Positions 1 through 59,908 of a DNA stretch of 59,908 nt are shown one piece after another. Position 1 is the first letter of the stretch; every line of letters starts with the position of its first letter. The notes below the pieces were generated by a model. That model was not told the origin of the DNA, did no database searches, and saw only the letters and a list, made by a program, of their open reading frames with translations. A program made the translations under genes and the position numbers. The stretch lies in the IMG/VR virus record IMGVR_UViG_3300032323_002596, positions 1 to 59,908 of that record, one strand, 5' to 3'. The stretch comes from a virus.

Positions 1-115
1 CGCAGCCGTTGTTGTAGTTGTAGTAGGCGCAGCCGTTGTTGTAGTTGTAGTAGGCGCAGCCGTTGTTGTAGTTGTAGTAGGCGCAGCCGTTGTTGTAGTT
101 GTAGTAGGCGCAGCC
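1..115 (-). repeat. 27-base tandem repeat, left copy
   Basis: Mirror of 59794-59908. The window begins at exactly the base of the repeat at which the other arm ends. Confidence 0.95.
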
Positions 116-3100
116 GTTGTTGTTGTAGTAGTTGTTGTAGGCCCCGCTGTGGTTGTAGTTGTTTCAGGTGCACAACAAGGTCCATATGAGTCAATTGTAA
201 ATGTTGCAGTTCCACCTAATGTGTTTCTTTGCACACAATTTGGAGAAGAACCAATAACTTCTGGCCCAAGTCCTACCGGTTGTGATTGTGCTGAACCATT
301 ACAATCTACATATGTTACATTTCCTGCTCCTGTTACTTCAATGTTTACAAATTGAACACAGTTACAAGGTATAGTTGTTGTAGTAGTAGTTGGAGCCGCT
401 GTTGTAGTGGTAGTCGTACTAGTTGTTGTTGTAGTCGTAGTAGTAGGCCCTGCTGTGGTAGTAGTTGATGTTGTAACTATATCATATCTATTTATCTCTT
501 CCATAGCAATAATATACTTATTAGTATAAGCATCAAAAACACCATATATGCAAGGGTTTCCTGTATATACCTGACCTTCAGGCACAATGCCATTATTCAA
601 CTCTTGCCTGTATTCTTGTGACAATGGAACAAAAAAAGCGTTTGTGCCATACAAGATACTTAATGGAGTAATTCCATCTTGACTTAATCTACATACAACA
701 CCCCTATAATTATCTACAAAATAATCAGAAAAATTATTCCAAGCCAAACTAGTGCCCGCATCACCAATACCATAATCTCCAGCGTAATACTGAATTTTAT
801 TAATTAACTGATCCGTATTTGCTTGCAATGGATTATTTGCACTGTCTTTTACAATCTGCGTTAAAATAGGCACATTTCCAACTTTGAATTTCTGATAAAC
901 TTTTAAATACCTATCTCTAACATGCAATCTAATTACATCTCCGAAACTTCTATCATACTCATCAAAATTTTCATACTTAAAATTATTAATCTGATTTATA
1001 TCTGTATTTACTTGATAAGCACCACCAAATCTAATTAGCGTTGGGAAGTAAGTTTTTTTAGCATTTACCTCAACTACAGAAGGCCTTCCATTACTATTTG
1101 TAACTAAATTGTATGTATCATTAAAGCTTTTTTCAATAATTCCAATAGATTTATCTTTTACTACATTAAAATCAAAATTCATTGGCTGAAGAACAAGAAT
1201 ATTAATACCAGTAGCGTCATTTGTGGAACTAGCAACTATCCAAACTTTACCCGATGGAGGGACTGCAAAACTTTTATCAATATCAAAAGTTACATTAAAA
1301 TTATTTGTAGTTGAGTTAAGAGAATTAACCTCTACAGGCAATAGTGAAACAGTATATTTTAAATTCAAAAAGGCTACATCTGTTAAAATTAATGCATAAA
1401 CAGAAAAAGTAGAATTACCACTTGTTGTAAATCTCAATGTCCCCTTTATTGAAAGTATCCTCTCGGCTGTACTTGATTTATTATAAAAAAAATATCCATC
1501 AGTAGCCCAAGTTGGCGCGCCAGCTCCGGTTATATCTACAGGAATATTTAATTGAGATTGTATCTTATATGCAGCATTATCTATTGTTCTTGGCACATTA
1601 ATAGGGAATGATTCAGATCTAGTTTCATTGGGGTCATTTGTATTTGTGTCAAATGAGGTAGAATTAAAATTATAACTATCCGAAAATGGTACTTTTCTAA
1701 GTCTATAAAACAAGTCTCCATTTGTAACAGGTATTGTTGCTCCCCCGTTTGGCAACTGTGTTAAGCCAAAATGGTATCTATTTTCCGTCCCTGGATTGCC
1801 TATTCCATATTGTTTACCAAATTCATAATAAAACCTCTGATTTGAATCTGCATTGGATGAATAATTATATACAAGTATTTCATAATGCTGAAAATCTGTT
1901 GTTCCAGGGAATTGGAAATTAGCACTTATATCAGCATCTGGGTATCTTATTTTTAAGAAATTACCATTAGCTGTATATGTATTTTTATCTGGAGCTATTG
2001 GCACAGGCCACTGTATGTTATATTCAAATGTAGATACGGTACCAACTATTTCATAATCATATTGTGGCAAATAAACTATCTCATTACTAACATTATATCT
2101 AGCAATAAATCTAATTCTATCTCCCTCTGTGTAATTATAGGAAACAACACCCTGTGTTGAACTTATAGCTTCATTATATGCCGCTATGTTATCAATTCCA
2201 ATATAAAAATATCTTGAATTATCTACATTATTCGTAATGCCAGCGTATGCAGACTCGCTTATCCAACACAATCTCTTATTGTAAGTAGTATTATTTGACC
2301 TTAAAACTTGATAATACGTAGCATATAATGGAGGCTTGTTCAGTATGCTTAAAGTTATTTGAGGATATTTTACAAGTGGCTGATCACTTGGCAAATTCGT
2401 AAAACTTGGGGTATTTATAGCACCTCCAATTTCTGTTTGCGCACCTATCGTTCTTCCTTGGGCATCAAAATATTGAATTGCATATTGATAACCCGAGTTC
2501 CATACATATGCAAAACTAGTATTATCATTACTCAATAAAGTTAATGTTTTAAATCCTACAGAGGTCAAAACAAACCCACTTGAATAATTCATAACCAATT
2601 TATTCCCAACCAATGATACTTGAGTATAACCTTTCAACACCATTGCAGCAGATATTCCAGCTAATATATCAGAAACCAAATATGAAGTTGTTAAACCTGA
2701 CGTTGTAAAAGATGTACTTAAATCTGTTCCATTTGATGCGAATGAATTTATATAATAACCACCTGCCGCATTATTTAATGTCGTAACCTCTCCACCTGTA
2801 TTTGTACCGGTACCATAAAGATATATACTCATTTGAGTACCAGGACCGCTATCAGTGCCATTTACCGTAGCAAGAAATAGCAAACCATTTTGATCATAAA
2901 AATAAGTATATGCATTTGGGGATGAATTAATACTTAAACTTACATTTGTTTTATCGTAACCCTCTGTAATTCCAGAATATAACAAAACATTACCATTTGC
3001 CAATTCTGCCGCATTTGCCTTTTGAGGTACATAATCTTGTAATTGGGAACTTTCAATAACATCTATTTGCGTATATACTGAATCATTGTAAAACTTATAA

Positions 3101-3966
3101 ATATAAATGATGTTATCTGATATATTAAGAAGCTGCTTATCAAAAGATTGTATTAAAAACCAATCGCTTGTTGAACCATTTGTTGTTTCTCTAAAACAAA
3201 GCTCAATAGCTTTTACATCTGGCCCACCAGTTGATAACAATACAGCTATTCTTGCATTATTTGTAGCAGTATTATCTGTAAGTGTTAATGATGGTTGCTG
3301 GGGTAATGGCACAATGCTTCTTGAACTCCACACAGATTTTTCATTGTTATCATAAACATATCTGTAAGAAAATTGAAATAATTTGTTTCTTAAATTATTA
3401 ATAGTTATAGTAGTATCATTTTCATAAACTACTTTTGGAGGCATTACCGGAGGAGCTTTGGCTACTAATATATATTCAAGCTTCCAGCTTGTACCATAAT
3501 TTCCAAGTACATTTATATTTTTTGGAGGATTAAAACCATCATTAAAAAATAAAATATCACCTTCTACATCCCTATAAAATATATTTACTGATAAAACTTT
3601 ATAAGATGGGTTAAAATTTAAAATATCAATACCATCACTATCTGTTTTGCTTTCTAATACCTTTGTTATTGTATCATTGCTTAAATCATAATACAAAATG
3701 CTATTATATCCATTACTATTCCAAAGAAAATAATACGCCCTATTTCTTACCCTATCGGCATAAAAACCAATAATTTTATTCGTACCAGCTGGCAGTGTGT
3801 ATGGTATTAAAGTGTTACCAAGAATATTTGATACTACTCTGTCCTGACCACGACCTTGCGCATCTTTTGTTATATTAAGCGCATCAATATAATCACCATT
3901 AGATATTCTATACTCGGCAACGTCTAAATTGAGCTTACCATTAAATGGGTTATTTATTATTGGCAT
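1..3966 (-). CDS. Giant tail stabilisation/hub-type protein, C-terminus missing (left copy)
   Basis: Mirror of 55943-59908. Start codon at 3966; frame open past base 1. Thr repeats occupy bases 1-162 and about 369-475 with the Cys-rich domain between. Confidence 0.75.
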   Translation of the reverse strand, partial: MPIINNPFNGKLNLDVAEYRISNGDYIDALNITKDAQGRGQDRVVSNILGNTLIPYTLPAGTNKIIGFYADRVRNRAYYFLWNSNGYNSILYYDLSNDTITKVLESKTDSDGIDILNFNPSYKVLSVNIFYRDVEGDILFFNDGFNPPKNINVLGNYGTSWKLEYILVAKAPPVMPPKVVYENDTTITINNLRNKLFQFSYRYVYDNNEKSVWSSRSIVPLPQQPSLTLTDNTATNNARIAVLLSTGGPDVKAIELCFRETTNGSTSDWFLIQSFDKQLLNISDNIIYIYKFYNDSVYTQIDVIESSQLQDYVPQKANAAELANGNVLLYSGITEGYDKTNVSLSINSSPNAYTYFYDQNGLLFLATVNGTDSGPGTQMSIYLYGTGTNTGGEVTTLNNAAGGYYINSFASNGTDLSTSFTTSGLTTSYLVSDILAGISAAMVLKGYTQVSLVGNKLVMNYSSGFVLTSVGFKTLTLLSNDNTSFAYVWNSGYQYAIQYFDAQGRTIGAQTEIGGAINTPSFTNLPSDQPLVKYPQITLSILNKPPLYATYYQVLRSNNTTYNKRLCWISESAYAGITNNVDNSRYFYIGIDNIAAYNEAISSTQGVVSYNYTEGDRIRFIARYNVSNEIVYLPQYDYEIVGTVSTFEYNIQWPVPIAPDKNTYTANGNFLKIRYPDADISANFQFPGTTDFQHYEILVYNYSSNADSNQRFYYEFGKQYGIGNPGTENRYHFGLTQLPNGGATIPVTNGDLFYRLRKVPFSDSYNFNSTSFDTNTNDPNETRSESFPINVPRTIDNAAYKIQSQLNIPVDITGAGAPTWATDGYFFYNKSSTAERILSIKGTLRFTTSGNSTFSVYALILTDVAFLNLKYTVSLLPVEVNSLNSTTNNFNVTFDIDKSFAVPPSGKVWIVASSTNDATGINILVLQPMNFDFNVVKDKSIGIIEKSFNDTYNLVTNSNGRPSVVEVNAKKTYFPTLIRFGGAYQVNTDINQINNFKYENFDEYDRSFGDVIRLHVRDRYLKVYQKFKVGNVPILTQIVKDSANNPLQANTDQLINKIQYYAGDYGIGDAGTSLAWNNFSDYFVDNYRGVVCRLSQDGITPLSILYGTNAFFVPLSQEYRQELNNGIVPEGQVYTGNPCIYGVFDAYTNKYIIAMEEINRYDIVTTSTTTTAGPTTTTTTTTSTTTTTTAAPTTTTTTIPCNCVQFVNIEVTGAGNVTYVDCNGSAQSQPVGLGPEVIGSSPNCVQRNTLGGTATFTIDSYGPCCAPETTTTTAGPTTTTTTTTAAPTTTTTTAAPTTTTTTAAPTTTTTTAAPTTTTTTAA

Positions 3967-3972
3967 TTGTTA

Positions 3973-4743
3973 TTATGCTTTTACAGTCATTCTTTGAGTG
4001 TCTAAATTTTGTTCATATGCTTGCATTAGGTACAATGGCTTAAATTGAGCATTTGCTAATCTTCTTTGATTATAAAATTCTGATTTTCTATCTCTCTTGT
4101 CTCCCAAATTACCTCTTCTTGTAGTAGGCATATTCACTATATCTCTCCAAGCTAACCAAGCAAGCATAGCCTCTCTAAATTGAATTGGAATAGAAAATGT
4201 TTCTTCTGGATTACCACTAGATAAATATTCTATCATCAAATAAGAATAATAAAAATATTGATTTAAAAGAACCACTCCATTAGAATCATCAATATTAAAT
4301 TGACCTACAAACGGAGATCCACTTGGTAAGCCATAAATATTATTAAAACCATAACCATCCCAATAATTAAACCATACCGGCAAATCAGATTGATACCAAG
4401 CTGCCAGGGTATTGTCTTGTGTCAAAGCCAATCTATCCGGTTGCTGGTCTCCATAAAATGTCATTTTAGGATTAAATTTCAAAGGTATAATTTCTCCAAC
4501 TGAATTTAAAACCCCAATTTTAGTATAGCTAATATAATCGTTTGGCAATTGAGCCGTAAAATTAGTTGTGTCAATTGCAACTTTTACTGTTCTTATTTTA
4601 TAAAAAAAGTCAAGTCCTAATTTTTCCATACCACGAACAGCTATGTTGTATAGCTTCGCATACTTGTGGACTGATTGCTCACTTTCATCAATATAATCAT
4701 TGATTACTGAATCTAGTGTTATATAATTTCTAACTTGTGACAT
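3973..4743 (-). CDS. Tail or neck structural protein (left copy)
   Basis: Mirror of 55166-55936: 256 residues, helical start and end around a beta domain; tail-tubular type by position. Confidence 0.6.
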   Translation of the reverse strand: MSQVRNYITLDSVINDYIDESEQSVHKYAKLYNIAVRGMEKLGLDFFYKIRTVKVAIDTTNFTAQLPNDYISYTKIGVLNSVGEIIPLKFNPKMTFYGDQQPDRLALTQDNTLAAWYQSDLPVWFNYWDGYGFNNIYGLPSGSPFVGQFNIDDSNGVVLLNQYFYYSYLMIEYLSSGNPEETFSIPIQFREAMLAWLAWRDIVNMPTTRRGNLGDKRDRKSEFYNQRRLANAQFKPLYLMQAYEQNLDTQRMTVKA

Positions 4744-4745
4744 TT

Positions 4746-5018
4746 TTAATTATTTGATAAGTAAGCTAATATATCATTATGTCGGATCAAAAAGTGCAAT
4801 TCATTATTTACAATGACAGGCTCTCCTGCTCCTTTTATGTGAAAAACAACGTCATCTTTCTTTGCTTCCATCTTAATTTTAGCAGTACCATTGCCTACAG
4901 AAACAACTTGTGCTTTACAATTTCTTTCTCTAAATCCTTCAGGCAAAAACAATCCGCCCTCTGTAACCTCTTCAGGTGCAAATGGTCTTACTAAAACAAA
5001 ATCTCTAATTGGTCTCAT
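4746..5018 (-). CDS. GroES-like co-chaperonin (left copy)
   Basis: Mirror of 54891-55163: 90-residue Cpn10-type protein with RPIRDFVLVRP start and ILAYL end. Confidence 0.8.
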   Translation of the reverse strand: MRPIRDFVLVRPFAPEEVTEGGLFLPEGFRERNCKAQVVSVGNGTAKIKMEAKKDDVVFHIKGAGEPVIVNNELHFLIRHNDILAYLSNN

Positions 5019-5032
5019 ATGTTTTCTTAATT

Positions 5033-5659
5033 TTAATTATCTACGCCATCATTACTTTGATCTATTGGCCTTGATTTCTCAAAAGCTAATTGACCTTTAA
5101 TATATTCAATAATCATTGGCATGTAATCATCCGGAACTATTAACGTAGATGTTAAGTCAGTTGAATCACCACCACTAATCATTCTTAATGTTGCCTTATA
5201 GCTTGTCAAAGGTATAGAACTTTTTACATAAATATTCTTACCTTCAATCCAGTAAAGAATTTTATTTTGAATTGGTCTTAATTGCTCTTGATAAGCAACT
5301 TGATTCATGCTCAAAGGTATAGCCGTTTGCGATGTCTTTTTATCACCCACAAATTGCAACATTGCAACGCCCTCGTTTTTACCCAATGCGTATGGAATTA
5401 CCGGCAAATCAATGCTATAAGTAACAGTATCTACAGTTTCAGCATTAATATCTATATTGGTAAATGTAGTGTAAAACGAATTGTTTACATATGAAATACC
5501 GTCAATTTGAATATTGTCTGTGTAATTCTTTTTAACGGCCATACCAACAGCATCATTCAGCCATTGATTTACCAAATTAAAAGTAATATTTGAATCATCG
5601 GATGGTTGTCCGTTATATATCTGTCTTAATATCCTTTCTATAAGCGCATATCTAGTCAT
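5033..5659 (-). CDS. Head-tail connector-type protein 2 (left copy)
   Basis: Mirror of 54250-54876; shares one base with connector 1. Confidence 0.6.
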   Translation of the reverse strand: MTRYALIERILRQIYNGQPSDDSNITFNLVNQWLNDAVGMAVKKNYTDNIQIDGISYVNNSFYTTFTNIDINAETVDTVTYSIDLPVIPYALGKNEGVAMLQFVGDKKTSQTAIPLSMNQVAYQEQLRPIQNKILYWIEGKNIYVKSSIPLTSYKATLRMISGGDSTDLTSTLIVPDDYMPMIIEYIKGQLAFEKSRPIDQSNDGVDN

Positions 5660-6354
5660 TATTGTCCTGTTTGTGTTATTTGATTAGCATATTGCTGCAC
5701 CATACCATCTTTTAAGTTTAAACCAATTAACTTCAATGCACGCGTAATAATTTCCAATAAATCAACATCATCCCATACTGGCTGAACAGTACCCGTAGTA
5801 GGAGTAACTCCAGCACCTGTTTGGGTTGGAGCATAAACTGGCCTTCCGCTTACTGTTGTATATGCCCATACAATATCTGGTGCATTTTTAACATAAGTTA
5901 AAATAGCGCTACCAAGATTTTTTGGATAAAACTGAAATTTGTTTGGCTCTATTAAATAAATAGGATTAGTTACAACAGGATCAATTTCGCTATTATAATA
6001 AGAATATAAACTGTCTTGCTGAACAAATCTAACTCTTTTAAAATCAGGTGTAATTATTGCATCCGCTTGCAGATAATCAGCAGGATATGGTGCTTCCCCT
6101 GTAGTCGCATTAATAGTTAATGTAGATTCGGTAATCAAAGGAGTTAATCTCTGTCTTATATTTTCATTTTGGCTATAATTAACCCTAGCCTGTGGCCTTC
6201 CGTATTGATATTGCTGAAACTCACCCAATAAATAATCTTGATACGAAATCTGTGCTTGATTTATGACAAGATTAAATTCAGCTGGTGTCAAATAACCATT
6301 CTGCGCTTTATTAATCGCAAACTGGCAAATACGATACATGTCATTAACATTCAT
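5659..6354 (-). CDS. Head-tail connector-type protein 1 (left copy)
   Basis: Mirror of 53555-54250; first gene behind the promoter at 6372-6379. Confidence 0.65.
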   Translation of the reverse strand: MNVNDMYRICQFAINKAQNGYLTPAEFNLVINQAQISYQDYLLGEFQQYQYGRPQARVNYSQNENIRQRLTPLITESTLTINATTGEAPYPADYLQADAIITPDFKRVRFVQQDSLYSYYNSEIDPVVTNPIYLIEPNKFQFYPKNLGSAILTYVKNAPDIVWAYTTVSGRPVYAPTQTGAGVTPTTGTVQPVWDDVDLLEIITRALKLIGLNLKDGMVQQYANQITQTGQ

Positions 6355-6371
6355 TGAAATAAGTTATATAA

Positions 6372-6379
6372 CAAATATA
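6372..6379 (-). promoter_or_regulatory. Connector-tail operon promoter (left copy)
   Basis: Mirror of 53530-53537, TATATTTG on the minus strand. Confidence 0.65.
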
Positions 6380-6381
6380 CG

Positions 6382-6413
6382 AAAAAGCCCCGTAATTTTT
6401 AGGCTACAGGGCT
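6382..6413 (-). terminator. Terminator abutting the connector promoter (left copy)
   Basis: Mirror of 53496-53527; 9-pair stem and T run on the minus strand. Confidence 0.85.
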
Positions 6414-6434
6414 ATTTTATTTAGAGGGGGAAGT

Positions 6435-7328
6435 TTATACCAATTTTTTCAATTGCTCTAAAAATGCCTTACTCTCGTCTTGAGGGAACATAGCAAAATC
6501 AACTAAATAAGTATGCGGCTTTTTGTCCGCTGGTATCTTGCAAATGAAGCCACCATTATTTGCCCAATAAGCTGATCCTTTCTTAGTTGTTGTATCAATC
6601 TTATTGTCAATCAATGCTTTTTTAACTATAAATGCAATTTCAACTTCTTTAGAACCAGCACTTTGCATAAACTTATTAGGTTGAGCTTCAGCGTAAAGTT
6701 CATAGTCGTTTCTTAATGCTTCCATAGATTTAGGCATACCTAAGTCATCTACAAACGAAATTCCCAAGAAATTACAATGTTTACGCATTTCTTCGTCAGA
6801 AGCTAATGAAGCGTACTTAATAGCCTCAACCTTAGCAACGCGTTTTGCCCTTTCAAGTTCAGCAGTTCTTTGTGGATTCCATTGGAAGAAAGTAACCTTT
6901 CTGGTTCCCTTTCTATTTGCATTATCTAAATTAGCATTACAAAGACTTAAAAACTCAAGTGCCTCAATATCATAATCAGCTACCCTTAAAACCCTACGGT
7001 CAAAAATTAAGCTTCTTCTGTTTTGTTCTACAAATGATTTTTCAAGTCCTTTTTGATCCTCTACCCAAATACTTGGATATCCTCTCAAAAGTCTAATTCT
7101 TTCCATTCTACCTTTCTTTTCATTCCAAACATCATCAATACCTTCCATATGGTATTTACCATTCTTCTTAGTATCTGATAATTTGAAAATCTTGAATGTA
7201 GTTCCGTTATTGGAAGCAGGGGCTAAATCAATGGCCTGAGCTGCTTCTTCATGTTGTCTTTGTACCTTTATTTCACCTTGTTGTGAAAAGTTAGCTTCCG
7301 CTAAACCTACTGCCTTTAAACGTGCCAT
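6435..7328 (-). CDS. Structural-region protein, unknown (left copy)
   Basis: Mirror of 52581-53474; 297 residues, isolated between two terminators. Confidence 0.6.
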   Translation of the reverse strand: MARLKAVGLAEANFSQQGEIKVQRQHEEAAQAIDLAPASNNGTTFKIFKLSDTKKNGKYHMEGIDDVWNEKKGRMERIRLLRGYPSIWVEDQKGLEKSFVEQNRRSLIFDRRVLRVADYDIEALEFLSLCNANLDNANRKGTRKVTFFQWNPQRTAELERAKRVAKVEAIKYASLASDEEMRKHCNFLGISFVDDLGMPKSMEALRNDYELYAEAQPNKFMQSAGSKEVEIAFIVKKALIDNKIDTTTKKGSAYWANNGGFICKIPADKKPHTYLVDFAMFPQDESKAFLEQLKKLV

Positions 7329-7350
7329 AAAATGGTTTTAAAATGTTTAA

Positions 7351-7385
7351 AATAGGTAGGGACAATCAATAAAGTTGCCCCTACC
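7351..7385 (-). terminator. Terminator after the capsid gene (left copy)
   Basis: Mirror of 52524-52558. Confidence 0.75.
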
Positions 7386-7408
7386 CGAATTATAATGTCC
7401 TAAATAGA

Positions 7409-8821
7409 CTAGCTACCTTGAACGATGATGAATTGGTTTGCTGCACAAACACGAGTACCACGGTAAGTGATCATCGCGATTTGATTAGTCATTGTACCAT
7501 CTGTTGGATTAGGAGATCCACCACCATATTGCCATACACGAATACCGTTACCAACAGTACCACCTTGAGGAGGTTGTTGATACATAATAGTGATATTCTT
7601 GTAAACTTGAGCGGTTTTAGCATCCTTAGTTTCTCCCATTGGATAGATTAAACCGAAATTACGGAAGTAATCATTTTGAGGAGTTAAACCAGTTGTAACC
7701 TCAGTGTTGAATTGAGAGTACTTCTTAACAGATAATAAATATCCATCAATGTAGATTTCTTGGAAACCATAAGCAACAGAAGCTTCTTTAGACTTCTCGC
7801 CTTGTCCATAAACGAAAGCACCAGCTGGGTAAGCAGCGAAGATACCATCAGAGAAATCTTGTCTTTGGAAGATGTCAGTTAACCAAGCAGATTGCTTAGC
7901 ACAACCGTTAACGTCCATGATACGAGTGATTTCATGTAATTTAGCGATATCTAATGTACCTGGAGTGTAACCAACAGTTTCACCGTCAGCAACTACTTTA
8001 GGGATGATACCTACTGAACCTTGAGAGTTAGAATCAATTGCGGCGTTGTTTTGTAAATCACCACGCATTAATTTAGCCTCTACGTTGTTCTTGAAACGTA
8101 CCAATGTTTTGTACATACCTTTGTAAGTGAAAGCTGTAACACCGTTTTGAGCCATATCTGGAGATACTGGGAACTCATAGTAAGTTTCAGCCATTTGCGC
8201 TAAGTCAGTGTTAGACCAACCATCGCGAATTTCAGTTACATAGTTGTCATATCTTTGATCCAATTGGATTAAAGGATTGATTGCTTGAGAAGCTTCACCA
8301 GCATCGGCATCACCACCGAATAATAAAACCTCACCTGCTAACAATTGATTTACGCCAGCAGAAGCAAATCTTTGACCAGTTTGCTTAGGAGCAACTTGGA
8401 AAGTCCATGCATAAGCTACGCTATCGTCAATAGAGATGATAACCCCTTCAATGTTAGAAGAAGCAACACGCAATGTTTCGTTAACTCTTAATGGAGTCTG
8501 AGTACCATTGTTGTAATAAGCTTCTTGTCCTAATGTTAAAGTTAAAGTAGCGCCAAGACCAGCTGAAACTGTAGATTCGTTTGTAACACCTGGCATTAAT
8601 TTACCACGGTTTTCAAACCAGAAGTAGTTTAAGTTTTTAACTTCTTCCATTCCGCTATGAGCAGCTAACCACCAAGTAAAATCTTCGTTGCCATACTTTT
8701 GAGTGTATTGCTTGTAGTACTGTGGAGTTAATAATTGTAGGTCAACCATAAGTTGCCTATTCTGGGTTTGCAACGAGATACTACCCGGTTGCAAAATATT
8801 TGAGGTAGGTATTCCTGCCAT
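7409..8821 (-). CDS. Major capsid protein (left copy)
   Basis: Mirror of 51088-52500; 470 residues, codon choice of a highly expressed gene. Confidence 0.85.
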   Translation of the reverse strand: MAGIPTSNILQPGSISLQTQNRQLMVDLQLLTPQYYKQYTQKYGNEDFTWWLAAHSGMEEVKNLNYFWFENRGKLMPGVTNESTVSAGLGATLTLTLGQEAYYNNGTQTPLRVNETLRVASSNIEGVIISIDDSVAYAWTFQVAPKQTGQRFASAGVNQLLAGEVLLFGGDADAGEASQAINPLIQLDQRYDNYVTEIRDGWSNTDLAQMAETYYEFPVSPDMAQNGVTAFTYKGMYKTLVRFKNNVEAKLMRGDLQNNAAIDSNSQGSVGIIPKVVADGETVGYTPGTLDIAKLHEITRIMDVNGCAKQSAWLTDIFQRQDFSDGIFAAYPAGAFVYGQGEKSKEASVAYGFQEIYIDGYLLSVKKYSQFNTEVTTGLTPQNDYFRNFGLIYPMGETKDAKTAQVYKNITIMYQQPPQGGTVGNGIRVWQYGGGSPNPTDGTMTNQIAMITYRGTRVCAANQFIIVQGS

Positions 8822-8869
8822 GATATTTTAGTTTTTGTTTTTAACGCCTCCTCCAAAGGCAATATCAAG

Positions 8870-10042
8870 TTACGAACTAAATGCCCACTCTGCTAGTCTC
8901 TGCCTTTCAGCTTCAACGCCACTAAGATCAGGTTTCGCTCCTTGAGGAGTTGCGGTTTGGTTGATGTTTATGTTCCCACTCTTTTTAAAATGAGCAAGCA
9001 ATCTTTGAGATGCCGCCTCATTTGCTATTTTTGAGAATATTTTATCACGGTTTTCTAACAGATATTTATCTGCCATAATTTGTTGAACATTTGGCTTACC
9101 ATCCTCGTTAAACCATCTGCCTTCAAAATAACTGTCCGTGTCAAAATCCTCTAATTGACTCTTCATTGCGCTTTTTTCTTCATCCCCCACATTAAATGAA
9201 ATCGGTATTTCAACATCCTCGTCTTTTACCGATACACTAAATCCGTTGAATGATTTAAAATCAGAGTCAAGTGTTTTTTCATAATTTGATCTAGCATATT
9301 GCATCATTTCATATTCTTCTTGAAATTGAGCTTGTCTGCCTGCCTCATTATAAATATCTGGTAATTGAATTTCACTTTTCAATTTTGCCAATTCAGATCT
9401 AGTTGTTTTAGCCTCAATCATCAACTTCCTTTCGGTATAGTCAACTTGAGCCTCCCAATTCTTTACCTTGTTAGCATAATCTTCATCAGTTTCATCAAAT
9501 CCCTGTTCTGGTTTTAAAGGTACGAAAAATTTATCATAAAATAAAAGTTCCACCTCTTCTTCATTTAACTCCTTGTGTTTTTGTCTAAGATTTTCTTTTA
9601 CAACTTCAATGGCTAATTCAGTATCTAATTCAGCAGTAGTCAATCTTTCTAGTTTTTTCTGCTGATTTAAAACTTGATACACATCGTCTGCTTTGCCTTC
9701 TTTAATTGCATCAAACAATGTTTTACTTACATCGTCCTTAAACTCAAAACTAGGCTCTTCTTTAAGCCTTCTAAATTGATTTTCAGCCTCTTCAACGCTT
9801 TCAAAGCCAAACCTTTCTCTTACAAATTCATTTGGATCAAATGACTGAGAGCTGTTTTGTTGCTCTGATTGTTCCGGTTGCTGTTCCGGTTGAGCCGTAA
9901 CTTGTTCGTTACTTGACTCATTTGTAGCAGTAGGGGTTACATCTACCGCTGTTTGTTGTTGTAACACAACATCTTCATCCCCGAAAGGATTGTAACCTTC
10001 TGCCAGCGTAATTGGTGCTGACATGTCTGTATTCTCTGGCAT
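8870..10042 (-). CDS. Capsid scaffold-like acidic protein (left copy)
   Basis: Mirror of 49867-51039; 390 residues, Gln/Glu-rich start and long helices. Confidence 0.7.
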   Translation of the reverse strand: MPENTDMSAPITLAEGYNPFGDEDVVLQQQTAVDVTPTATNESSNEQVTAQPEQQPEQSEQQNSSQSFDPNEFVRERFGFESVEEAENQFRRLKEEPSFEFKDDVSKTLFDAIKEGKADDVYQVLNQQKKLERLTTAELDTELAIEVVKENLRQKHKELNEEEVELLFYDKFFVPLKPEQGFDETDEDYANKVKNWEAQVDYTERKLMIEAKTTRSELAKLKSEIQLPDIYNEAGRQAQFQEEYEMMQYARSNYEKTLDSDFKSFNGFSVSVKDEDVEIPISFNVGDEEKSAMKSQLEDFDTDSYFEGRWFNEDGKPNVQQIMADKYLLENRDKIFSKIANEAASQRLLAHFKKSGNININQTATPQGAKPDLSGVEAERQRLAEWAFSS

Positions 10043-10071
10043 AAATGCTGATTTGGTTTCTATTTTATATT

Positions 10072-10097
10072 AGAGCACACCTATATTGATGTGCTCT
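10072..10097 (-). other. Stem-loop before the scaffold gene (left copy)
   Basis: Mirror of 49812-49837. Confidence 0.55.
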
Positions 10098-10113
10098 ATT
10101 TTATTTAATTATA

Positions 10114-10722
10114 TTAACAAGCTGTGTAACTGCTAATTGTATTACCAAATGGTCCGCCCATATTACAAACTTGATCTTGAGCTGCGAAATAAATGCTAAG
10201 ATACTGACCATAAAGAGGTCTGTTATATGGAACAGTTAGTCCTGCATCCATATACAAACTAACACCGATATTTAATGATAGAGTATTAGCATATACTGTA
10301 ATCATTGGGTTAATACGTGCACACGCATCAAGTGGATCAGATGCACCATAAGCCATGAAAGCGTATGATGAAACTGCACTAGTAGTAGTTGTTGTAGTAG
10401 GTGCAGCAGTTGTAGTTGTTGTAGTAGGCGCAGTAGTAGTGGTTGTAGTTGTACCAGAACCAATCGCTATTACGCCACTCTCACTTATAGTAATTGGATA
10501 TACTACAGAAGTATTTGTCAATAACTGTACGCCATACCAACTTGTTCCATCTCCATAAATAGGTTGTGTTAATCTACTATCAGCATATAATACATTAGCA
10601 GTTGTTAATGTGCTTGTTGTAGTATATACTATTTGAGTGCCCTGATCAACTCCTATAAGATTTGCCTGAAAGGCATCAGGGTATGTATTTTTAGACAATA
10701 CATAAGCTATTGAATTTGCCAT
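10114..10722 (-). CDS. Two-domain virion-type protein with Thr linker (left copy)
   Basis: Mirror of 49187-49795; Thr-rich units lie at about 10378-10454. Confidence 0.6.
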   Translation of the reverse strand: MANSIAYVLSKNTYPDAFQANLIGVDQGTQIVYTTTSTLTTANVLYADSRLTQPIYGDGTSWYGVQLLTNTSVVYPITISESGVIAIGSGTTTTTTTAPTTTTTTAAPTTTTTTSAVSSYAFMAYGASDPLDACARINPMITVYANTLSLNIGVSLYMDAGLTVPYNRPLYGQYLSIYFAAQDQVCNMGGPFGNTISSYTAC

Positions 10723-10723
10723 T

Positions 10724-11071
10724 TTATTCTATTTTTAAATATTTACCAATAATACCAAATGCCACTAAACCACTAGCGGCAATTGATGTAACATCAGCTT
10801 TTGATGTTAAATTTACTCCAGAAACAGATATCCAGTTAATTGGCACTTCAGGTGCTGGTAATAATTGACCAGTAATAGCGCCATCATCATTTGTTGTGCT
10901 AAAATTAATTGTACCAGAAGGGCTTACTAATTGAACTACAGCCGAATCCCATCCAGATAAATCCTGATAGAAGCTGTTGTTCGCATTAAATGATTCAGTT
11001 GCATCTACAACTGTACTAATTTTTGAACTAAATTTTTGTAGTCTTATTAAAAGTTTACTAACCGTTGCCAT
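10724..11071 (-). CDS. Small structural-type protein (left copy)
   Basis: Mirror of 48838-49185; 115 residues. Confidence 0.6.
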   Translation of the reverse strand: MATVSKLLIRLQKFSSKISTVVDATESFNANNSFYQDLSGWDSAVVQLVSPSGTINFSTTNDDGAITGQLLPAPEVPINWISVSGVNLTSKADVTSIAASGLVAFGIIGKYLKIE

Positions 11072-11097
11072 TTTTTTATTTTTTTAATTTTTATTTA

Positions 11098-13560
11098 TTA
11101 TTGTTGCATTTGTTGAGCCATCATTTGTTCCTGCATCATCTGCTCCTCCATCATTTGTTGATCCTCTGGAGACATCTCCTCTTCTTCGCCCTGCTGAGGC
11201 TCCATTTGTTCGCCTTCTCCGCCTTGTTGCTGCATCGCCGCTTGTTGCTGTTGCATTTCCTCCATTTGCATTTGCTGCATTTGCTTTTCAATTTGATCAT
11301 TTTCCATTACTAATGGCATCTCAACATTTTGCAACATTTCAGCTAACAAAGGTCTTAATTCAACCGGAACAGGTATATTAGCCTTAGCCAAATCAAACAT
11401 TCCTTGTATAACAATCGCTCTTTCTTTTGCTTGAGTTTGTTTTTCTAATAAAGCAGCATCACCCTCAGCTTTAGCTTGCATACTTGCTTGTTGAATTTGA
11501 GCATTTTGCTGACTATTGTTAGCTGCGTTTTCTTGTTCATTTTTTATAAATCTTTTTTGCGCTTGTCTAAAATATAATTCAGCTAATTCAACATTTTCCT
11601 TAGCAATTCTAACAATCTTAAATGGATCTAAATACATTACTAATTGAGGATTTGATGCCATAGCATTGTTCATCATTATTTGCAAATTAGCAATTTCTTG
11701 AGCTTGTGGCAACATTCTAACCGTAGCCACAAAGTTTCTATCTACAACATCAGACTCTTTTAATAAATTTCTGTATTTCTTTGCTCCATAAGTAACGCTC
11801 TTATTTAATAAACATGCTATTTTTTTACATGTTTCTTCCATAACATAAATATATGCATCATACATATATTCTGTAGCATTATTAGCTAAAACTCTTGATG
11901 CCTCAATATTTGAAGCAGCAACTCTTGGTTGAGCAGCTTGGTTCATCAAATTAGGATCTTCACCAAGTTCGTCTTTTAAAACTTGATAATGGAATTGATA
12001 CAACTGAATTAAAGATTGCAATTGAGGCGAAAATCCTGAATTTGCTAATTCTGTAATTGGCACAGGTATTCTATTTCCTTCGGCATCTCTACCACGATAG
12101 TAAAGCTTACCAGTTTGTTCCCAAATCTTTTGAACGTCTAATGGCTTTACAGAGTCACCCAGTCCCAAATCTAACTCCTGCATTGCATCCACATCTATAG
12201 CGGCACCTGCCGGCACCATCTTAGCTACTAATTGTTGTATCTTTAATCTAGCTAAAATCATTTGTTCAATTGGCTCTTCAATCTTTTCTGGCACAGCTAC
12301 ATTACGCATGTCATATGGATCATACATATAGAAGCTATAAGAAAATTCTGCGTTGCCAATTTCTTTTGGATCTTGCGGGCGAATCATGTTTTTCTTAATT
12401 CCCCACTTAATCATTTTTTGAGTAACTGGACAATATACACCTTCGTATATATTCCACTTTTTCTCTTCTAAATATTGCTGATTTTCATCTAATTTTTCTG
12501 GCTTACCTTTTCTTATGATAGTGCTACCGTTTTTCTTCGTCTTAGTAACAGTATATCCATCAGAATCTAAAGTCTTAATTTCAAATTGCATTAAATCAAT
12601 ATTCCATTCGTCATATGGTCTTAACCATGCAACGTTCCAATCTTGCATCCACTTAATCTTATCTGTAAGTTGGTATTCTTTTGAAGATTGAGCTAATTCA
12701 AATATATCTTCTTCGCTTAATGTTCCGCCACTTTCTTTACCATATCTTGCTCTTATTTCGCTAATCTTCATTGATAAGATATGACCTCTATAAGTAGTAT
12801 CTCTAAAATCAGGGAAATCAGAATAAGAATAAATTGCATTTTCTGGGCGAATCCATTGAACATGAATTTCACCTTCTTCATCCATCCATGTATAAGTACA
12901 TACTAATCCAACCTCTGCTGAATCGTGTAATAATCTTTGTTTTAAAACATCATTCCATCCATTAGCCTCTAATACATTATTGCAACCAAGACTATATTGT
13001 ATCTCTTCTGGTAAATGATTAAATTCTGTAATCCATCTATCTAACTCGTCTTTATCTTCTGCAACAAATTGGTCTGGAGATATAATTGGTATTCCAGACT
13101 CTTGTTGAATTTGTCCCAATATCTCTTTATTCTGAAACACAAACTCTGCTTCATCTGCTGCATTTTTTTTAAGCATTGCAGAGGCGCTATCAGTAGCTGT
13201 AACAGTAACCTTTTCATTTCTACTCATCCATGATCCAACTAATCTTGCAACAATTGTATTACCAATAATAATTGACTTCCAATTGATATTTACAAAGTTA
13301 GCTTTACTGTTCATCTCTAAACGATCCATAAACACACTCATGTCTATTTTACCGTTTGCGATTTGTCTATTTTTTCTAAATCTATTATTTCTTAACCAAA
13401 AATAAGTTTGATTACCATAGATTGTAGAATAAATGCTTTGTGCAACATTTTTACCATAGGTATAATCTTTTTTAGAAGATACGTCTGTAGTAATTTGGAA
13501 TTTTTTTAAAGCCTCCCCATTACTATTTGCTGCTGATATGTATAAAGGACTATCTGCCAA
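11098..13560 (-). CDS. Portal protein (left copy)
   Basis: Mirror of 46349-48811; TTG start at 13560-13558, Gln/Met-rich C-terminus toward 11098. Confidence 0.85.
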   Translation of the reverse strand: MADSPLYISAANSNGEALKKFQITTDVSSKKDYTYGKNVAQSIYSTIYGNQTYFWLRNNRFRKNRQIANGKIDMSVFMDRLEMNSKANFVNINWKSIIIGNTIVARLVGSWMSRNEKVTVTATDSASAMLKKNAADEAEFVFQNKEILGQIQQESGIPIISPDQFVAEDKDELDRWITEFNHLPEEIQYSLGCNNVLEANGWNDVLKQRLLHDSAEVGLVCTYTWMDEEGEIHVQWIRPENAIYSYSDFPDFRDTTYRGHILSMKISEIRARYGKESGGTLSEEDIFELAQSSKEYQLTDKIKWMQDWNVAWLRPYDEWNIDLMQFEIKTLDSDGYTVTKTKKNGSTIIRKGKPEKLDENQQYLEEKKWNIYEGVYCPVTQKMIKWGIKKNMIRPQDPKEIGNAEFSYSFYMYDPYDMRNVAVPEKIEEPIEQMILARLKIQQLVAKMVPAGAAIDVDAMQELDLGLGDSVKPLDVQKIWEQTGKLYYRGRDAEGNRIPVPITELANSGFSPQLQSLIQLYQFHYQVLKDELGEDPNLMNQAAQPRVAASNIEASRVLANNATEYMYDAYIYVMEETCKKIACLLNKSVTYGAKKYRNLLKESDVVDRNFVATVRMLPQAQEIANLQIMMNNAMASNPQLVMYLDPFKIVRIAKENVELAELYFRQAQKRFIKNEQENAANNSQQNAQIQQASMQAKAEGDAALLEKQTQAKERAIVIQGMFDLAKANIPVPVELRPLLAEMLQNVEMPLVMENDQIEKQMQQMQMEEMQQQQAAMQQQGGEGEQMEPQQGEEEEMSPEDQQMMEEQMMQEQMMAQQMQQ

Positions 13561-13578
13561 TTTGAGTATATTTTACGT

Positions 13579-13586
13579 CAAATATA
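13579..13586 (-). promoter_or_regulatory. Portal promoter box (left copy)
   Basis: Mirror of 46323-46330. Confidence 0.6.
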
Positions 13587-13616
13587 CTAAATATTAAGAA
13601 TTTAGTAAAATTTTAA

Positions 13617-15665
13617 TTAATTAAATACAGGAACATAACTTTTAACTAGTGGTTCTCTTTTAACCTGCTTCTGAATTGGCTCCATTAAACAAACAATCAA
13701 CATTAAAAATGATACCGTAATGTCATAGTCTGTTCTATTATTGGGATCAAACTTTTTGGCATCTTCAAGCAAGTTTTCAAAATCAATTGAATCAATATGA
13801 GACTCAAAATACATAATGCCGACATCGGTTTGCTTGGTTAAGCTAAATGGCGTAGTCGGGAATCCCTTGTGCCTATCTGCTGTCTCCCTTTTTGATGGAT
13901 CTATTGTGGATAAGGGATAGGAACCTAAATACCCAACCCTACCTCTATCTCTAAAATATGATAAATAATCATCACTATTATGCTCGTACCAAGCCTGATA
14001 ACCATAAAATTCGGCAGCTAAAAGGACTTGTTCGTGTAATATTTCTTTAATTGGCGGCCTTCCATACAAATGCCCTATTGCCTTACCGGTCTGTTCCGGA
14101 TTTAACAAATCATATCTTCTACCTATCCAAGCAGATGCTTTTGAACCATATTTACCACCCTGACTATTACTATACCCGTCAATTGCAATAGCTCCATCAT
14201 GTACTCTTCCTGGCTTTCTAGTCTTAACATCAAATGTGTGCTTATTCTCTTCACCTGGTTTTGGGAATTGGGTTATTACCCAATGAAAATCTTCTTCTTT
14301 ATCTGTAATGTTTCTCCATCTAACCGTTTGGTCTAAGTCTCTATAAAATATAACATGTCTCTTTAATACAGGATTTTCTTTTAAATATTGCTCTCTTGAA
14401 CCAATGTTCATTACATTAAAAATACATTTATCAGAATCTGTACTAAAAGCTTCATCAATAGTCAATGGCTCTTTTCTTACACGCGCAGATAATGCTCTTG
14501 GGTTGTTTTTAACTGTTTCCCTATCTGCCAATATTTGGTCTAAGGTTTTATTTTCATCAGGATAACCAAAATCATCAAAGTTTCTAGTTCGTTTAGCAGA
14601 CATAAAGAATCTATAAAGGCCACTTGAAGTTGTGCCATTATCTTGCCTTTTATCCTGATTACTTTCCTCCCATAATAATTTAAACGCATCTTGTACTCCA
14701 TCTTTTTCTGTTGTTAATTTTTCAACCGTTGTAGTATATAATGCCTTGCCAATGATTTTACCCTCATCATCCAATAAACAATAACGGACAACCTCGTGCC
14801 TATCGTAAACATTTACCTCCGTTGTTTTACCGCACTCGTCAGCAACATATCTATGCAATTTCTGTCCGTCATATGCAACCGTATCAGCTGACTGATGGTC
14901 AATAATTGAACCCAATTCATCCTTATCTACACTCTCCTCTGCCTTTTTACCTCTTACATTGGTTTTTTGGAACCTCATCTCTGTCTTAGGATTTACCCCC
15001 AAAGACATATCGTATTCCGGTCTAAAAAACTTAGGGAGCCTTCTAAATGGATTTACAACAGTTTTAGCAAAGAATTTCTTGGCATCCGAACCTGTTTTAG
15101 ACTGAATACCACCGTTGGTCATTTTTGTCCTAGTTATATATTCGGTAACAAACAATCCTGCTACAAATGATTTACCAAAACGCCTTTTAGTAACTTCTAG
15201 CATCCCCATACATAATGGATCTTGGATGCAATAGTCCATGAAATAAAATTTCTCTAAATCTGGAATACGAAATTTAGGATAACCAATATCTATTGGCCAC
15301 CATTGTAAATACAAATAATGCAACCCCGTTAAAAAAGTAGGCACTCCATTATTCATGTACCAAAAACCATTTAATCTTCTATCCCACTCTTGCTTTTTAA
15401 ATTCCTCAAGCTTTTCGTCATAAAACTCTACATCGTCATCCTTTTTCTTTTTGTCAAATTCATCCCACCTTTTCATAGTATCTAAATACCAATCAGGCAA
15501 AGGCATCCTTTTCCAATACTGTTCTGACTGAATTTCAGATCTTTTATAAACACCCCTAAATTCTACTTGCTTTGTAATTATATTAAATACATAGCCTTCA
15601 GGAGGTAAATTACATTTTAACCCCTGAATATCTATAACACTACCACCTTCAATTTTTTCGTACAT
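13617..15665 (-). CDS. terL: Terminase large subunit (left copy)
   Basis: Mirror of 44244-46292; Walker A RRFGKS, Walker B VADECGK, nuclease Asp496 and Glu561. Confidence 0.93.
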   Translation of the reverse strand: MYEKIEGGSVIDIQGLKCNLPPEGYVFNIITKQVEFRGVYKRSEIQSEQYWKRMPLPDWYLDTMKRWDEFDKKKKDDDVEFYDEKLEEFKKQEWDRRLNGFWYMNNGVPTFLTGLHYLYLQWWPIDIGYPKFRIPDLEKFYFMDYCIQDPLCMGMLEVTKRRFGKSFVAGLFVTEYITRTKMTNGGIQSKTGSDAKKFFAKTVVNPFRRLPKFFRPEYDMSLGVNPKTEMRFQKTNVRGKKAEESVDKDELGSIIDHQSADTVAYDGQKLHRYVADECGKTTEVNVYDRHEVVRYCLLDDEGKIIGKALYTTTVEKLTTEKDGVQDAFKLLWEESNQDKRQDNGTTSSGLYRFFMSAKRTRNFDDFGYPDENKTLDQILADRETVKNNPRALSARVRKEPLTIDEAFSTDSDKCIFNVMNIGSREQYLKENPVLKRHVIFYRDLDQTVRWRNITDKEEDFHWVITQFPKPGEENKHTFDVKTRKPGRVHDGAIAIDGYSNSQGGKYGSKASAWIGRRYDLLNPEQTGKAIGHLYGRPPIKEILHEQVLLAAEFYGYQAWYEHNSDDYLSYFRDRGRVGYLGSYPLSTIDPSKRETADRHKGFPTTPFSLTKQTDVGIMYFESHIDSIDFENLLEDAKKFDPNNRTDYDITVSFLMLIVCLMEPIQKQVKREPLVKSYVPVFN

Positions 15666-15667
15666 AA

Positions 15668-16057
15668 TTAATATCTTTTGCCAGCTAATTCGCCTACAGC
15701 ATCAGCCATGTTTTCTGGAGAAAATGGTTTTCTAGTAATTTGAACTTGTTCTTTTTTATCGTCCTTAGCTTCTTGGTTTATGCCAGCAAGCACTTCTAAC
15801 GCCTTTATTGACGAAGAAATCGTACCCGCATCTACCCATATTTTCTGCAACCTCTCAAAAGTTTTAATCTTAGGATCGTCAATATCAATCGCAGTAAGAC
15901 TTGTTTTATTAAGCAATTCAGCCATTTCATTTGCTTTCCTATTAAGAGCATGATACAGCTTTCCAATACCATCTTCTTCATAGTAAGCGTTTTTACTTTG
16001 AAGATAAGATATTTGCCTTTGTAAATCTTTAATTTTATTTTCTAATTCTACTGACAT
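15668..16057 (-). CDS. Coiled-coil protein, possible terminase small subunit (left copy)
   Basis: Mirror of 43852-44241. Confidence 0.5.
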   Translation of the reverse strand: MSVELENKIKDLQRQISYLQSKNAYYEEDGIGKLYHALNRKANEMAELLNKTSLTAIDIDDPKIKTFERLQKIWVDAGTISSSIKALEVLAGINQEAKDDKKEQVQITRKPFSPENMADAVGELAGKRY

Positions 16058-58900: not shown

Positions 58901-59908
58901 AATACAGATATAAATCAGATTAATAATTTTAAGTATGAAAATTTTGATGAGTATGATAGAAGTTTCGGAGATGTAATTAGATTGCATGTTAGAGATAGGT
59001 ATTTAAAAGTTTATCAGAAATTCAAAGTTGGAAATGTGCCTATTTTAACGCAGATTGTAAAAGACAGTGCAAATAATCCATTGCAAGCAAATACGGATCA
59101 GTTAATTAATAAAATTCAGTATTACGCTGGAGATTATGGTATTGGTGATGCGGGCACTAGTTTGGCTTGGAATAATTTTTCTGATTATTTTGTAGATAAT
59201 TATAGGGGTGTTGTATGTAGATTAAGTCAAGATGGAATTACTCCATTAAGTATCTTGTATGGCACAAACGCTTTTTTTGTTCCATTGTCACAAGAATACA
59301 GGCAAGAGTTGAATAATGGCATTGTGCCTGAAGGTCAGGTATATACAGGAAACCCTTGCATATATGGTGTTTTTGATGCTTATACTAATAAGTATATTAT
59401 TGCTATGGAAGAGATAAATAGATATGATATAGTTACAACATCAACTACTACCACAGCAGGGCCTACTACTACGACTACAACAACAACTAGTACGACTACC
59501 ACTACAACAGCGGCTCCAACTACTACTACAACAACTATACCTTGTAACTGTGTTCAATTTGTAAACATTGAAGTAACAGGAGCAGGAAATGTAACATATG
59601 TAGATTGTAATGGTTCAGCACAATCACAACCGGTAGGACTTGGGCCAGAAGTTATTGGTTCTTCTCCAAATTGTGTGCAAAGAAACACATTAGGTGGAAC
59701 TGCAACATTTACAATTGACTCATATGGACCTTGTTGTGCACCTGAAACAACTACAACCACAGCGGGGCCTACAACAACTACTACAACAACAACGGCTGCG
59801 CCTACTACAACTACAACAACGGCTGCGCCTACTACAACTACAACAACGGCTGCGCCTACTACAACTACAACAACGGCTGCGCCTACTACAACTACAACAA
59901 CGGCTGCG
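55943..59908 (+). CDS. Giant tail stabilisation/hub-type protein, C-terminus missing
   Basis: The frame runs from ATG 55943 to the window end: 1,322 residues without a stop. The start, NPFNGKLNLDVAEYRISNG then DYIDALNITKDA, matches the pattern (GKxxxDxxExxxxNGxYxDALN) I associate with the crAss-like stabilisation protein after the tail-tubular gene. A long beta-rich body to about residue 1160 is followed by Thr repeats (about 1165-1199), a small domain with seven Cys (about 1200-1268), and more Thr repeats. The tail end, probably receptor-facing, is lost in the 27-base repeats. Confidence 0.75.
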   Translation, partial: MPIINNPFNGKLNLDVAEYRISNGDYIDALNITKDAQGRGQDRVVSNILGNTLIPYTLPAGTNKIIGFYADRVRNRAYYFLWNSNGYNSILYYDLSNDTITKVLESKTDSDGIDILNFNPSYKVLSVNIFYRDVEGDILFFNDGFNPPKNINVLGNYGTSWKLEYILVAKAPPVMPPKVVYENDTTITINNLRNKLFQFSYRYVYDNNEKSVWSSRSIVPLPQQPSLTLTDNTATNNARIAVLLSTGGPDVKAIELCFRETTNGSTSDWFLIQSFDKQLLNISDNIIYIYKFYNDSVYTQIDVIESSQLQDYVPQKANAAELANGNVLLYSGITEGYDKTNVSLSINSSPNAYTYFYDQNGLLFLATVNGTDSGPGTQMSIYLYGTGTNTGGEVTTLNNAAGGYYINSFASNGTDLSTSFTTSGLTTSYLVSDILAGISAAMVLKGYTQVSLVGNKLVMNYSSGFVLTSVGFKTLTLLSNDNTSFAYVWNSGYQYAIQYFDAQGRTIGAQTEIGGAINTPSFTNLPSDQPLVKYPQITLSILNKPPLYATYYQVLRSNNTTYNKRLCWISESAYAGITNNVDNSRYFYIGIDNIAAYNEAISSTQGVVSYNYTEGDRIRFIARYNVSNEIVYLPQYDYEIVGTVSTFEYNIQWPVPIAPDKNTYTANGNFLKIRYPDADISANFQFPGTTDFQHYEILVYNYSSNADSNQRFYYEFGKQYGIGNPGTENRYHFGLTQLPNGGATIPVTNGDLFYRLRKVPFSDSYNFNSTSFDTNTNDPNETRSESFPINVPRTIDNAAYKIQSQLNIPVDITGAGAPTWATDGYFFYNKSSTAERILSIKGTLRFTTSGNSTFSVYALILTDVAFLNLKYTVSLLPVEVNSLNSTTNNFNVTFDIDKSFAVPPSGKVWIVASSTNDATGINILVLQPMNFDFNVVKDKSIGIIEKSFNDTYNLVTNSNGRPSVVEVNAKKTYFPTLIRFGGAYQVNTDINQINNFKYENFDEYDRSFGDVIRLHVRDRYLKVYQKFKVGNVPILTQIVKDSANNPLQANTDQLINKIQYYAGDYGIGDAGTSLAWNNFSDYFVDNYRGVVCRLSQDGITPLSILYGTNAFFVPLSQEYRQELNNGIVPEGQVYTGNPCIYGVFDAYTNKYIIAMEEINRYDIVTTSTTTTAGPTTTTTTTTSTTTTTTAAPTTTTTTIPCNCVQFVNIEVTGAGNVTYVDCNGSAQSQPVGLGPEVIGSSPNCVQRNTLGGTATFTIDSYGPCCAPETTTTTAGPTTTTTTTTAAPTTTTTTAAPTTTTTTAAPTTTTTTAAPTTTTTTAA
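59794..59908 (+). repeat. 27-base tandem repeat coding TTTTTTAAP, cut by the window end
   Basis: Four exact copies starting at 59794, 59821, 59848 and 59875 (GGCTGCGCCT then ACTACAACTACAACAAC) and a 7-base remnant. Exact copies longer than short reads are a usual cause of contig ends. Confidence 0.95.

Follow-up and report, generated by a model that had tools for sequence, protein, structure and literature searches.

A palindromic viral record and the putative hairpin telomeres of tailed phages with a RusA gene in their inverted terminal repeats

In poxviruses such as vaccinia and fowlpox virus the DNA is linear and carries long inverted terminal repeats (ITRs); the hairpin tips are rich in AT, mismatched in some cases and accompanied by a conserved element close by. 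These viruses encode a Holliday junction resolvase of the A22 type, and their junctions are believed to be resolved by the resolvase at an extruded cruciform (excerpts of PMC6962361 and PMC8956199). The rudivirus SIRV2, an archaeal rod-shaped virus, likewise has a hairpin-ended linear genome with ITRs, and its resolvase Hjr, related to Hje and Hjc of Sulfolobus, cuts extruded junctions into nicked hairpins that a ligase can seal (excerpts of PMC3157427). Among tailed phages, hairpin telomeres are found in N15, PY54, phiKO2 and vB_YenS_P840; phages of the N15 type carry the protelomerase beside the telRL palindrome, which lies between two arms, and circularise via cohesive ends (excerpts of PMC10612081). 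Here we analyse the IMG/VR record IMGVR_UViG_3300032323_002596, a viral DNA of 59,908 nucleotides (the window, i.e. the whole stretch studied), which is its own reverse complement and carries beside its axis of symmetry a gene for a RusA-family Holliday junction resolvase. The reading we prefer, at a probability of roughly three in four, is that of a tailed phage with a linear genome of ~66–75 kb, RusA-bearing ITRs of ~1.3–4.7 kb and hairpin telomeres, which would be resolved by RusA in the manner of poxviruses and rudiviruses. The host probably belongs to the phylum Bacteroidota.

Judged by anatomy, the window phage system may work like that of poxviruses and rudiviruses, in a tailed phage with a RusA-type resolvase and no polymerase of the families tested. 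Poxviruses also encode a primase-helicase, as does the window phage. There are also differences: the window encodes a terminase large subunit and a portal protein, which place the phage in the Caudoviricetes, the virion genes identified in it are of the tailed-phage type, the resolvase is of the RusA family and not RuvC-like, and most readable tips look perfectly palindromic. The family B DNA polymerase typical of Poxviridae was found neither by PF00136 (0 of 20 contigs) nor in its protein-primed form by PF03175 (0/14), and family A polymerases were equally absent (0/14). The SIRV2 resolvase is not known to be related to RusA. The nearest named relatives by terminase among the matches listed are the Flavobacterium elemo phages, Cellulophaga phages and MW202828 (28–29% identity, all 87 matched records being below 60%); unlike the window phage, the two of these groups that were compared, the elemo phages and MW202828, have circular or apparently circularly permuted maps. 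No tailed phage with such ends was found among the titles and opening lines of abstracts listed from a literature that includes neither preprints nor most subscription journals.

The palindromic record and the conserved tip beside RusA

Base-by-base comparison of the record with its reverse complement gave 0 mismatches in 59,908 bases, with the axis between positions 29,954 and 29,955, in agreement with the perfect palindrome of 2 x 29,954 bases claimed in the initial annotation of this DNA. The mirrored tRNA mentioned there is a tRNA-Gln, present in both arms (25037–25109 and 34800–34872). That both outer ends stop in the same 27-base repeat was borne out for the left end by a repeat scan of 1–29954, which placed it in a tandem array (family D1, spacing 27; positions 1–166, mirrored at 59743–59908), and holds for the right end because this is its exact mirror. 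Positions 1–29954 represent one genome arm, running outward to the telomere tip, and 29955–59908 are the fold-back copy, so the record contains a single sequence followed in both directions and gene counts taken from it are doubled, as that annotation had already pointed out.

A second record of the same species, IMGVR_UViG_3300032326_000971 (G032, 58,309 bases), is collinear with window positions 11–28,300. The four main aligned blocks, among them 11–10113, 10388–25298 and 25979–28300, are 97–99% identical and are interrupted by unaligned gaps of ~0.3 and ~0.7 kb, G032 having ~1.2 kb extra. G032 starts at window position 28300 and extends ~29.4 kb beyond the left end of the window, crossing the tandem repeat; the outer ends of the window therefore resemble a point where assembly broke off, and the size of the genome is given neither by 29,954 nor by 59,908. 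The window is a single arm of 29,954 bases assembled to the tip and back, of which the last ~1.65 kb (28300–29954) would probably be the ITR, a boundary that is suggested by this one genome end of the window species and is comparable to the inner ITR boundary of another relative, G010. A similar Thr-rich coding repeat of 27 bases is present at 11–166, 374–475, 10358–10486 and 17108–17241, spread over three genes (1–3966, 10114–10722 and 16798–17217) on both strands.

The RusA gene (29378–29836, plus strand; PF05866, E 5e-15; phrog_140, E 3e-23) is the final gene before the tip, 118 bp from the axis, with its mirror copy at 30073–30531 on the minus strand. A search of IMG/VR with the window RusA, of which the best 80 of 107 relatives were kept, gave 80 loci on 79 contigs. 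In 75 of them the contig ends within RusA or runs no further than 177 bp beyond the stop codon of this gene, and in five (L002, L025, L067, L071 and L072) it folds back as an exact palindrome of 5–10 kb; counting the window, fully palindromic contigs at the homologous site number six. The axis is read across in 21 of the 80 loci (the five full palindromes, 15 exact fold-backs and L019 with one mismatch), and sequence other than the mirror was found beyond the tip in none of the 80. The axis coincides in contigs that come from different metagenome ids (L024/L025, L071/L072, L029/L030). Further searches yielded nine more loci (six others of the 15 were already in the set, and L237 is the same contig as L073), where the contig ends at most 234 bp after the RusA match, and another eight new loci, in five of which the contig continues for no more than 113 bp after the match. 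The initial annotation had suggested a search for related phages that continue past the resolvase gene into different sequence; no non-mirrored sequence past the axis was found in any locus with at least 63% RusA identity to its query, though most of these loci stop before the axis.

The contig ends themselves carry the trace of the fold. With the five full palindromes excluded from both groups, exact fold-backs of 11–63 bases were found at 15 of 75 telomere-side ends, whereas fold-backs of at least 8 bases were found at none of 73 other ends (40 left ends of full contigs and 33 further ends). Four fold-backs terminate exactly 63 bases beyond the axis. The ends of two long contigs overlap exactly in inverted orientation, over 127 (G048) and 123 bases. 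This is the pattern that a k=127 de Bruijn graph leaves at a self-complementary junction and at a collapsed inverted repeat; k=127 is presumably the assembler setting used by JGI. In our reading, such graph traces imply that reads physically crossed the tip. The palindrome is not a random chimera. In a survey of fold centres (65 rows, with some contigs entered twice) most axis-crossing contigs proved perfectly symmetric at the centre.

The window telomere, from the RusA stop codon to its mirrored counterpart (29837–30072, centred on 29954/29955), aligns with 21 other telomere arms. After the duplicates L025 and L072 had been dropped, 20 distinct arms remained, in which conservation was analysed with the axis as anchor. 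Box A (GAGTATTATATACA; 29862–29875, plus strand) is conserved in the 20 arms at a distance from the axis that varies between 34 and 93 bp. Because the arms were chosen by the motif GAGTATTATA, the first 10 bases of box A, the invariance of those ten columns is a consequence of selection; conservation extends into the flanks, beyond the selected columns, and box A with its upstream flank reads CGCCAAAGACTC-GCG-TT-TGAGTATTATATAC. The terminal box lies at a fixed distance from the axis, with C at 15, A at 9–11 and T at 5 and 7 (19/20 arms share the C at 15, and 19/20 the A at 10 and at 11); in the window it corresponds to box C (CTAGCAATCCCTAAA) followed by 8 AT-rich bases up to the axis (29932–29954, plus strand). 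RusA adjoins the telomere in all 30 contigs selected by the telomere motif, itself taken from RusA-selected loci; 29 of the 30 are in the RusA-selected list and one appeared in the further RusA search. The exact 36-base axis sequence had 0 matches in viral contigs since the tip differs between species, and a DNA search with window 28000–29954 gave no match among named phages.

Not all tips are perfect. The tip of L244 folds as a hairpin of 145 nucleotides with internal mismatches (arms 84% matched, z -13.5), L033 has a 4-nucleotide loop, ACAA, and L019 one mismatch. A mirrored copy cannot create imperfect hairpins such as these; the mismatched hairpin is clear in L244 and minor in the other two, and most tips look perfect.

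Linear genomes with inverted terminal repeats

The long relatives of the window phage are non-palindromic linear genomes of ~66–75 kb with inverted end redundancy. Among the 21 contigs of at least 60 kb (L264, of 67 kb but only 33% RusA identity, was excluded as not belonging to the family) terminal redundancy is inverted in 12 and direct in none. Two are nearly complete in this respect: G010 (69,590 bases) and G062 (66,344 bases) have RusA at both ends, within identical ITRs of 1730 and 1295 bp, respectively. Eight others (G004, G006, G008, G019, G020, G022, G025 and G081) have RusA at one end only, while the opposite end overlaps the inner terminal stretch in inverted orientation over 60–311 bases; G048 and G069 show the inverted end-to-end overlap without RusA. 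ITR lengths come to ~1.3–4.7 kb, with missing tip bases uncounted, and the genome sizes of eight contigs to 65.8–74.5 kb when the missing ITR copy is added to the contig. RusA is reached from the left arm, which carries the replication and terminase genes, in nine long contigs (G006, G010, G014, G015, G019, G020, G022, G025 and G062), and from the right arm in five (G004, G008, G010, G062 and G081). That the genome is linear, with ITRs and palindromic at its tip, we regard as very likely. The out-and-back interpretation of the initial annotation stands, while the real ITR-bearing genome of ~66–75 kb had escaped it.

Contigs sampled by other genes fit this map without demonstrating it. Of 78 terminase-selected loci, 48 contigs were taken for a RusA search; five carry RusA, each at the extreme end of the contig. 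Sampling of the right arm by the phage ligase gave 10 contigs with RusA in one (G010), and the other nine stop 4.6–6.7 kb from the ligase, where a contig broken at the ITR would be expected to stop, although this is no proof. Two contigs of metagenome-assembled genomes carrying a relative of the capsid protein (62% identity) had no RusA match and are uninformative on ends. The idea that relatives of 64–70 kb might be palindromes of 2 x 35 kb was abandoned, as self-comparison of four of them revealed one unique genome with inverted end redundancy.

Several minor observations concern the ends. G-rich/C-rich strand-skewed tracts are present at the non-RusA ends of G006, G019, G080 and G081, at or near the inner ITR boundary, and are possibly an origin, a packaging site or a recombination site. 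G080 (77,352 bases; locus L265) is a divergent member with 64% RusA identity and a variant telomere motif; a G-rich tract forms its opposite end, and it showed no ITR. In G010 an ArdA antirestriction gene (67192–67728, i.e. L086 7192–7728; E 1e-33) lies ~130 bp inside the right ITR boundary. L257 and L258, from different metagenomes, have their right ends at, or at most 2 bases from, the stop codon of the same gene, by eye a homologue of window 26800–27084; this shared end may mark another kind of genome end.

Proposed telomere resolution by RusA and alternative explanations

What the sequences show directly is a linear map with ITRs, a palindromic tip at a conserved site, sequence across this tip in several metagenomes and RusA beside it. 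Reads would cross the tip either because the strands are covalently joined there or because head-to-head replication junctions exist, and the assembler would have followed one arm as far as the tip and then returned along its reverse complement. We consider it quite probable that the genome has a covalently closed hairpin at some stage; of the real causes named in the initial annotation, a hairpin end or a head-to-head dimer, the hairpin telomere is the one we favour. The host polymerase and the phage primase-helicase would copy around the hairpins to give head-to-head and tail-to-tail junctions, such a junction would extrude as a cruciform, RusA would introduce symmetric nicks close to the conserved terminal box, and each product would be sealed into a new hairpin by a ligase, either of the host or, in some members, of the phage itself. 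RusA is the slightly favoured candidate for the resolving enzyme. Its catalytic residues are kept, D98, D100, K104 and D114 being invariant in 6 aligned sequences, including RusA of the lambdoid phage HK639; no sequence of a solved structure matched the window RusA at E 0.01. HK639 RusA belongs to the same family and keeps the active-site residues, but its gene is internal, flanked by a NinE/HNH pair on one side and a Q-like antiterminator on the other, whereas here it is the last gene and lies inside the ITR. E. coli RusA cleaves nearly exclusively 5' of CC dinucleotides symmetric about the branch point (excerpts of PMC3485210). A CC dinucleotide is found 11–18 bases from the axis in 15 of 20 tips, which only hints at cleavage at a fixed CC of the tip.

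Should this mechanism hold, tailed phages would possess genome ends like those of poxviruses and rudiviruses, which are unexpected there, with no protelomerase detected and an ordinary small resolvase at the tip; and RusA would have gained a telomere function. The packaging of a closed-ended genome by a terminase would need a new answer and becomes a testable question. The inflated palindromes among database contigs, six in this analysis, and the unexplained fragments would be accounted for, as a contig end in the family of the window would be a real chromosome end. That this extends to a widespread family of tailed phages with poxvirus-style ends is a tentative generalisation, about which we remain somewhat doubtful. 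Long ITRs in such a family would terminate in covalently closed hairpins, mismatched in some cases, and the enzyme producing them would be a resolvase of the RusA type and not a protelomerase; hairpin telomeres made by a resolvase would then have been invented for a third time, after poxviruses and rudiviruses.

The fixed-distance palindromic core of the hairpin tips resembles a resolvase target, and one could imagine a protelomerase of the N15 type whose substrate, a short telRL palindrome with different arms on its two sides, is cut and rejoined, the mirror stemming from the hairpins of a linear plasmid prophage. This is unlikely, since neither the ResT/TelK family (PF16684, searched without a known telomere phage as positive control) nor the tyrosine recombinase family (PF00589) was found in any of 14 contigs, two different arms flank the palindrome in no axis-crossing contig (only the mirror is seen in the 21 crossing loci of the 80), and kilobase ITRs are absent from the N15-type system as described in the excerpts of PMC10612081. 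About equally improbable are open genome ends with self-complementary tips, from which snap-back and fill-in during library preparation would generate fold-back reads. Such a process would likewise restrict fold-backs to natural ends, but the axis is the same across metagenome ids and its distance from box C does not vary, the centres are mostly perfectly symmetric whereas a loop without a mirror would be expected after snap-back priming, and L244 is a long mismatched hairpin with no copied arm.

The initial annotation leaned towards a plain artefact, as the arms are base-identical and equally truncated. In that case no biological end would exist, and the mirror would stem from a random chimera, from an adapter that was missed or from the assembler. 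Equal truncation would be expected, however, whenever an assembly graph path meets its own reverse complement, and so does not favour an artefact. The fold recurs across metagenomes at one homologous site (six full palindromes and 15 partial ones, the latter at 15/75 tip ends as against 0/73 other ends), the telomere sequence is conserved across relatives, and there are imperfect hairpins as well as ITRs in near-complete genomes, all of which leaves this explanation with very little credit. The same small weight is given to a long perfect palindrome within a circular or circularly permuted genome, at which assemblers would fold without a real end. MW202828, among the nearest named phages by terminase, is a circular record, and the position of the terminase differs greatly between elemo phage records of nearly the same length; yet in G010, G062, G004 and G008 two different arms leave the same repeat in inverted orientation, so that the map is one with ITRs rather than a circle, direct terminal redundancy is absent (0/21), and the axis-crossing loci show the mirror only.

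A number of observations weigh against the resolution of hairpin telomeres by RusA, or limit its reach. A head-to-head junction would produce the same sequence as covalent closure, so the closure itself is inferred. The lack of further sequence in the 59 of 80 loci that stop at or before the axis is weak evidence, and the CC dinucleotide is missing from some arms. In the sister lineage L256–L258 (61% RusA identity) the contigs run for 719–1448 bp through other genes beyond RusA; the telomere motif was not found in these three. A palindromic tip that can form a hairpin and is followed by no further sequence is seen in the clade of the window and is lacking in these sister contigs. Far RusA homologues in L263 (40%) and L264 (33%) sit in mid-contig, and the rule that contigs end at RusA is valid for that clade and not for every RusA relative. 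RusA also occurs in many other phages (68 named records), and the window encodes a second candidate resolving nuclease, the structure-specific endonuclease NinG/Rap (22325–22864, plus strand; PF05766, E 5e-15; phrog_5034, E 3e-25). A divergent protelomerase or resolvase could possibly have escaped the family searches. The phage DNA-ligase domain was detected in 10 of 20 contigs (8 over the cut-off) and in neither the window nor G032, which weakens the idea of a phage ligase as a constant part of the core. Nine of the 21 long contigs (G014, G015, G040, G041, G054, G066, G078, G080 and G082) have no inverted redundancy, perhaps due to incompleteness, and 43 of the 48 terminase-selected contigs have no RusA, which is compatible with breaks at the ITR. 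Finally, of the 80 loci, 76 have the RusA end joined to the left arm and 3 have it joined to the right, as assigned by similarity to G010 proteins (L002 could not be assigned in this way, though its DNA matches the arm of the window). Equal ITRs do not predict this skew; selection of recognisable viral genes into the database may explain it, and unequal ends within the population are possible.

Other genes of the window

Beside RusA lies a gene for a small Arc/RHH-like protein (29215–29397, plus strand), related to the Arc-like repressors of phrog_3180 (E 2e-5), with a match to Pfam RHH_1 (E 0.0018) below the cut-off. The plus strand also carries a RecE-like recombination exonuclease (23646–24368; phrog_5715, E 1e-47; phrog_434, E 3e-9; no Pfam match), for which YqaJ is the likely name. 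The replication genes on the minus strand comprise the primase-helicase (18682–20544; BT4734-like_N and PriCT_1 domains; phrog_18375 DNA primase/helicase, E 1e-59), a predicted replication initiation protein or replisome organiser (20544–21239; Lin1244_N, E 2e-10; phrog_2562, E 1e-18) and a single-strand DNA-binding protein (18322–18660; PF00436, E 1e-16). Serine resolvases were found in none of 20 contigs.

The terminase large subunit (13617–15665, minus strand) has no Pfam match and was recognised by tblastn (MW202828, 29.2% identity, E 3e-60; Flavobacterium elemo phages, 27.7%, E 1e-52), and the portal protein (11098–13560, minus strand), equally without a Pfam match, by phrog_6547 (E 8e-57). 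The structural gene cluster of the window includes a gene for a GroES-like co-chaperonin (4746–5018; Cpn10, E 7e-17), and a ferritin-like gene (E 1e-14) is located near the structural genes of G010 (35247–35747, i.e. L084 15247–15747).

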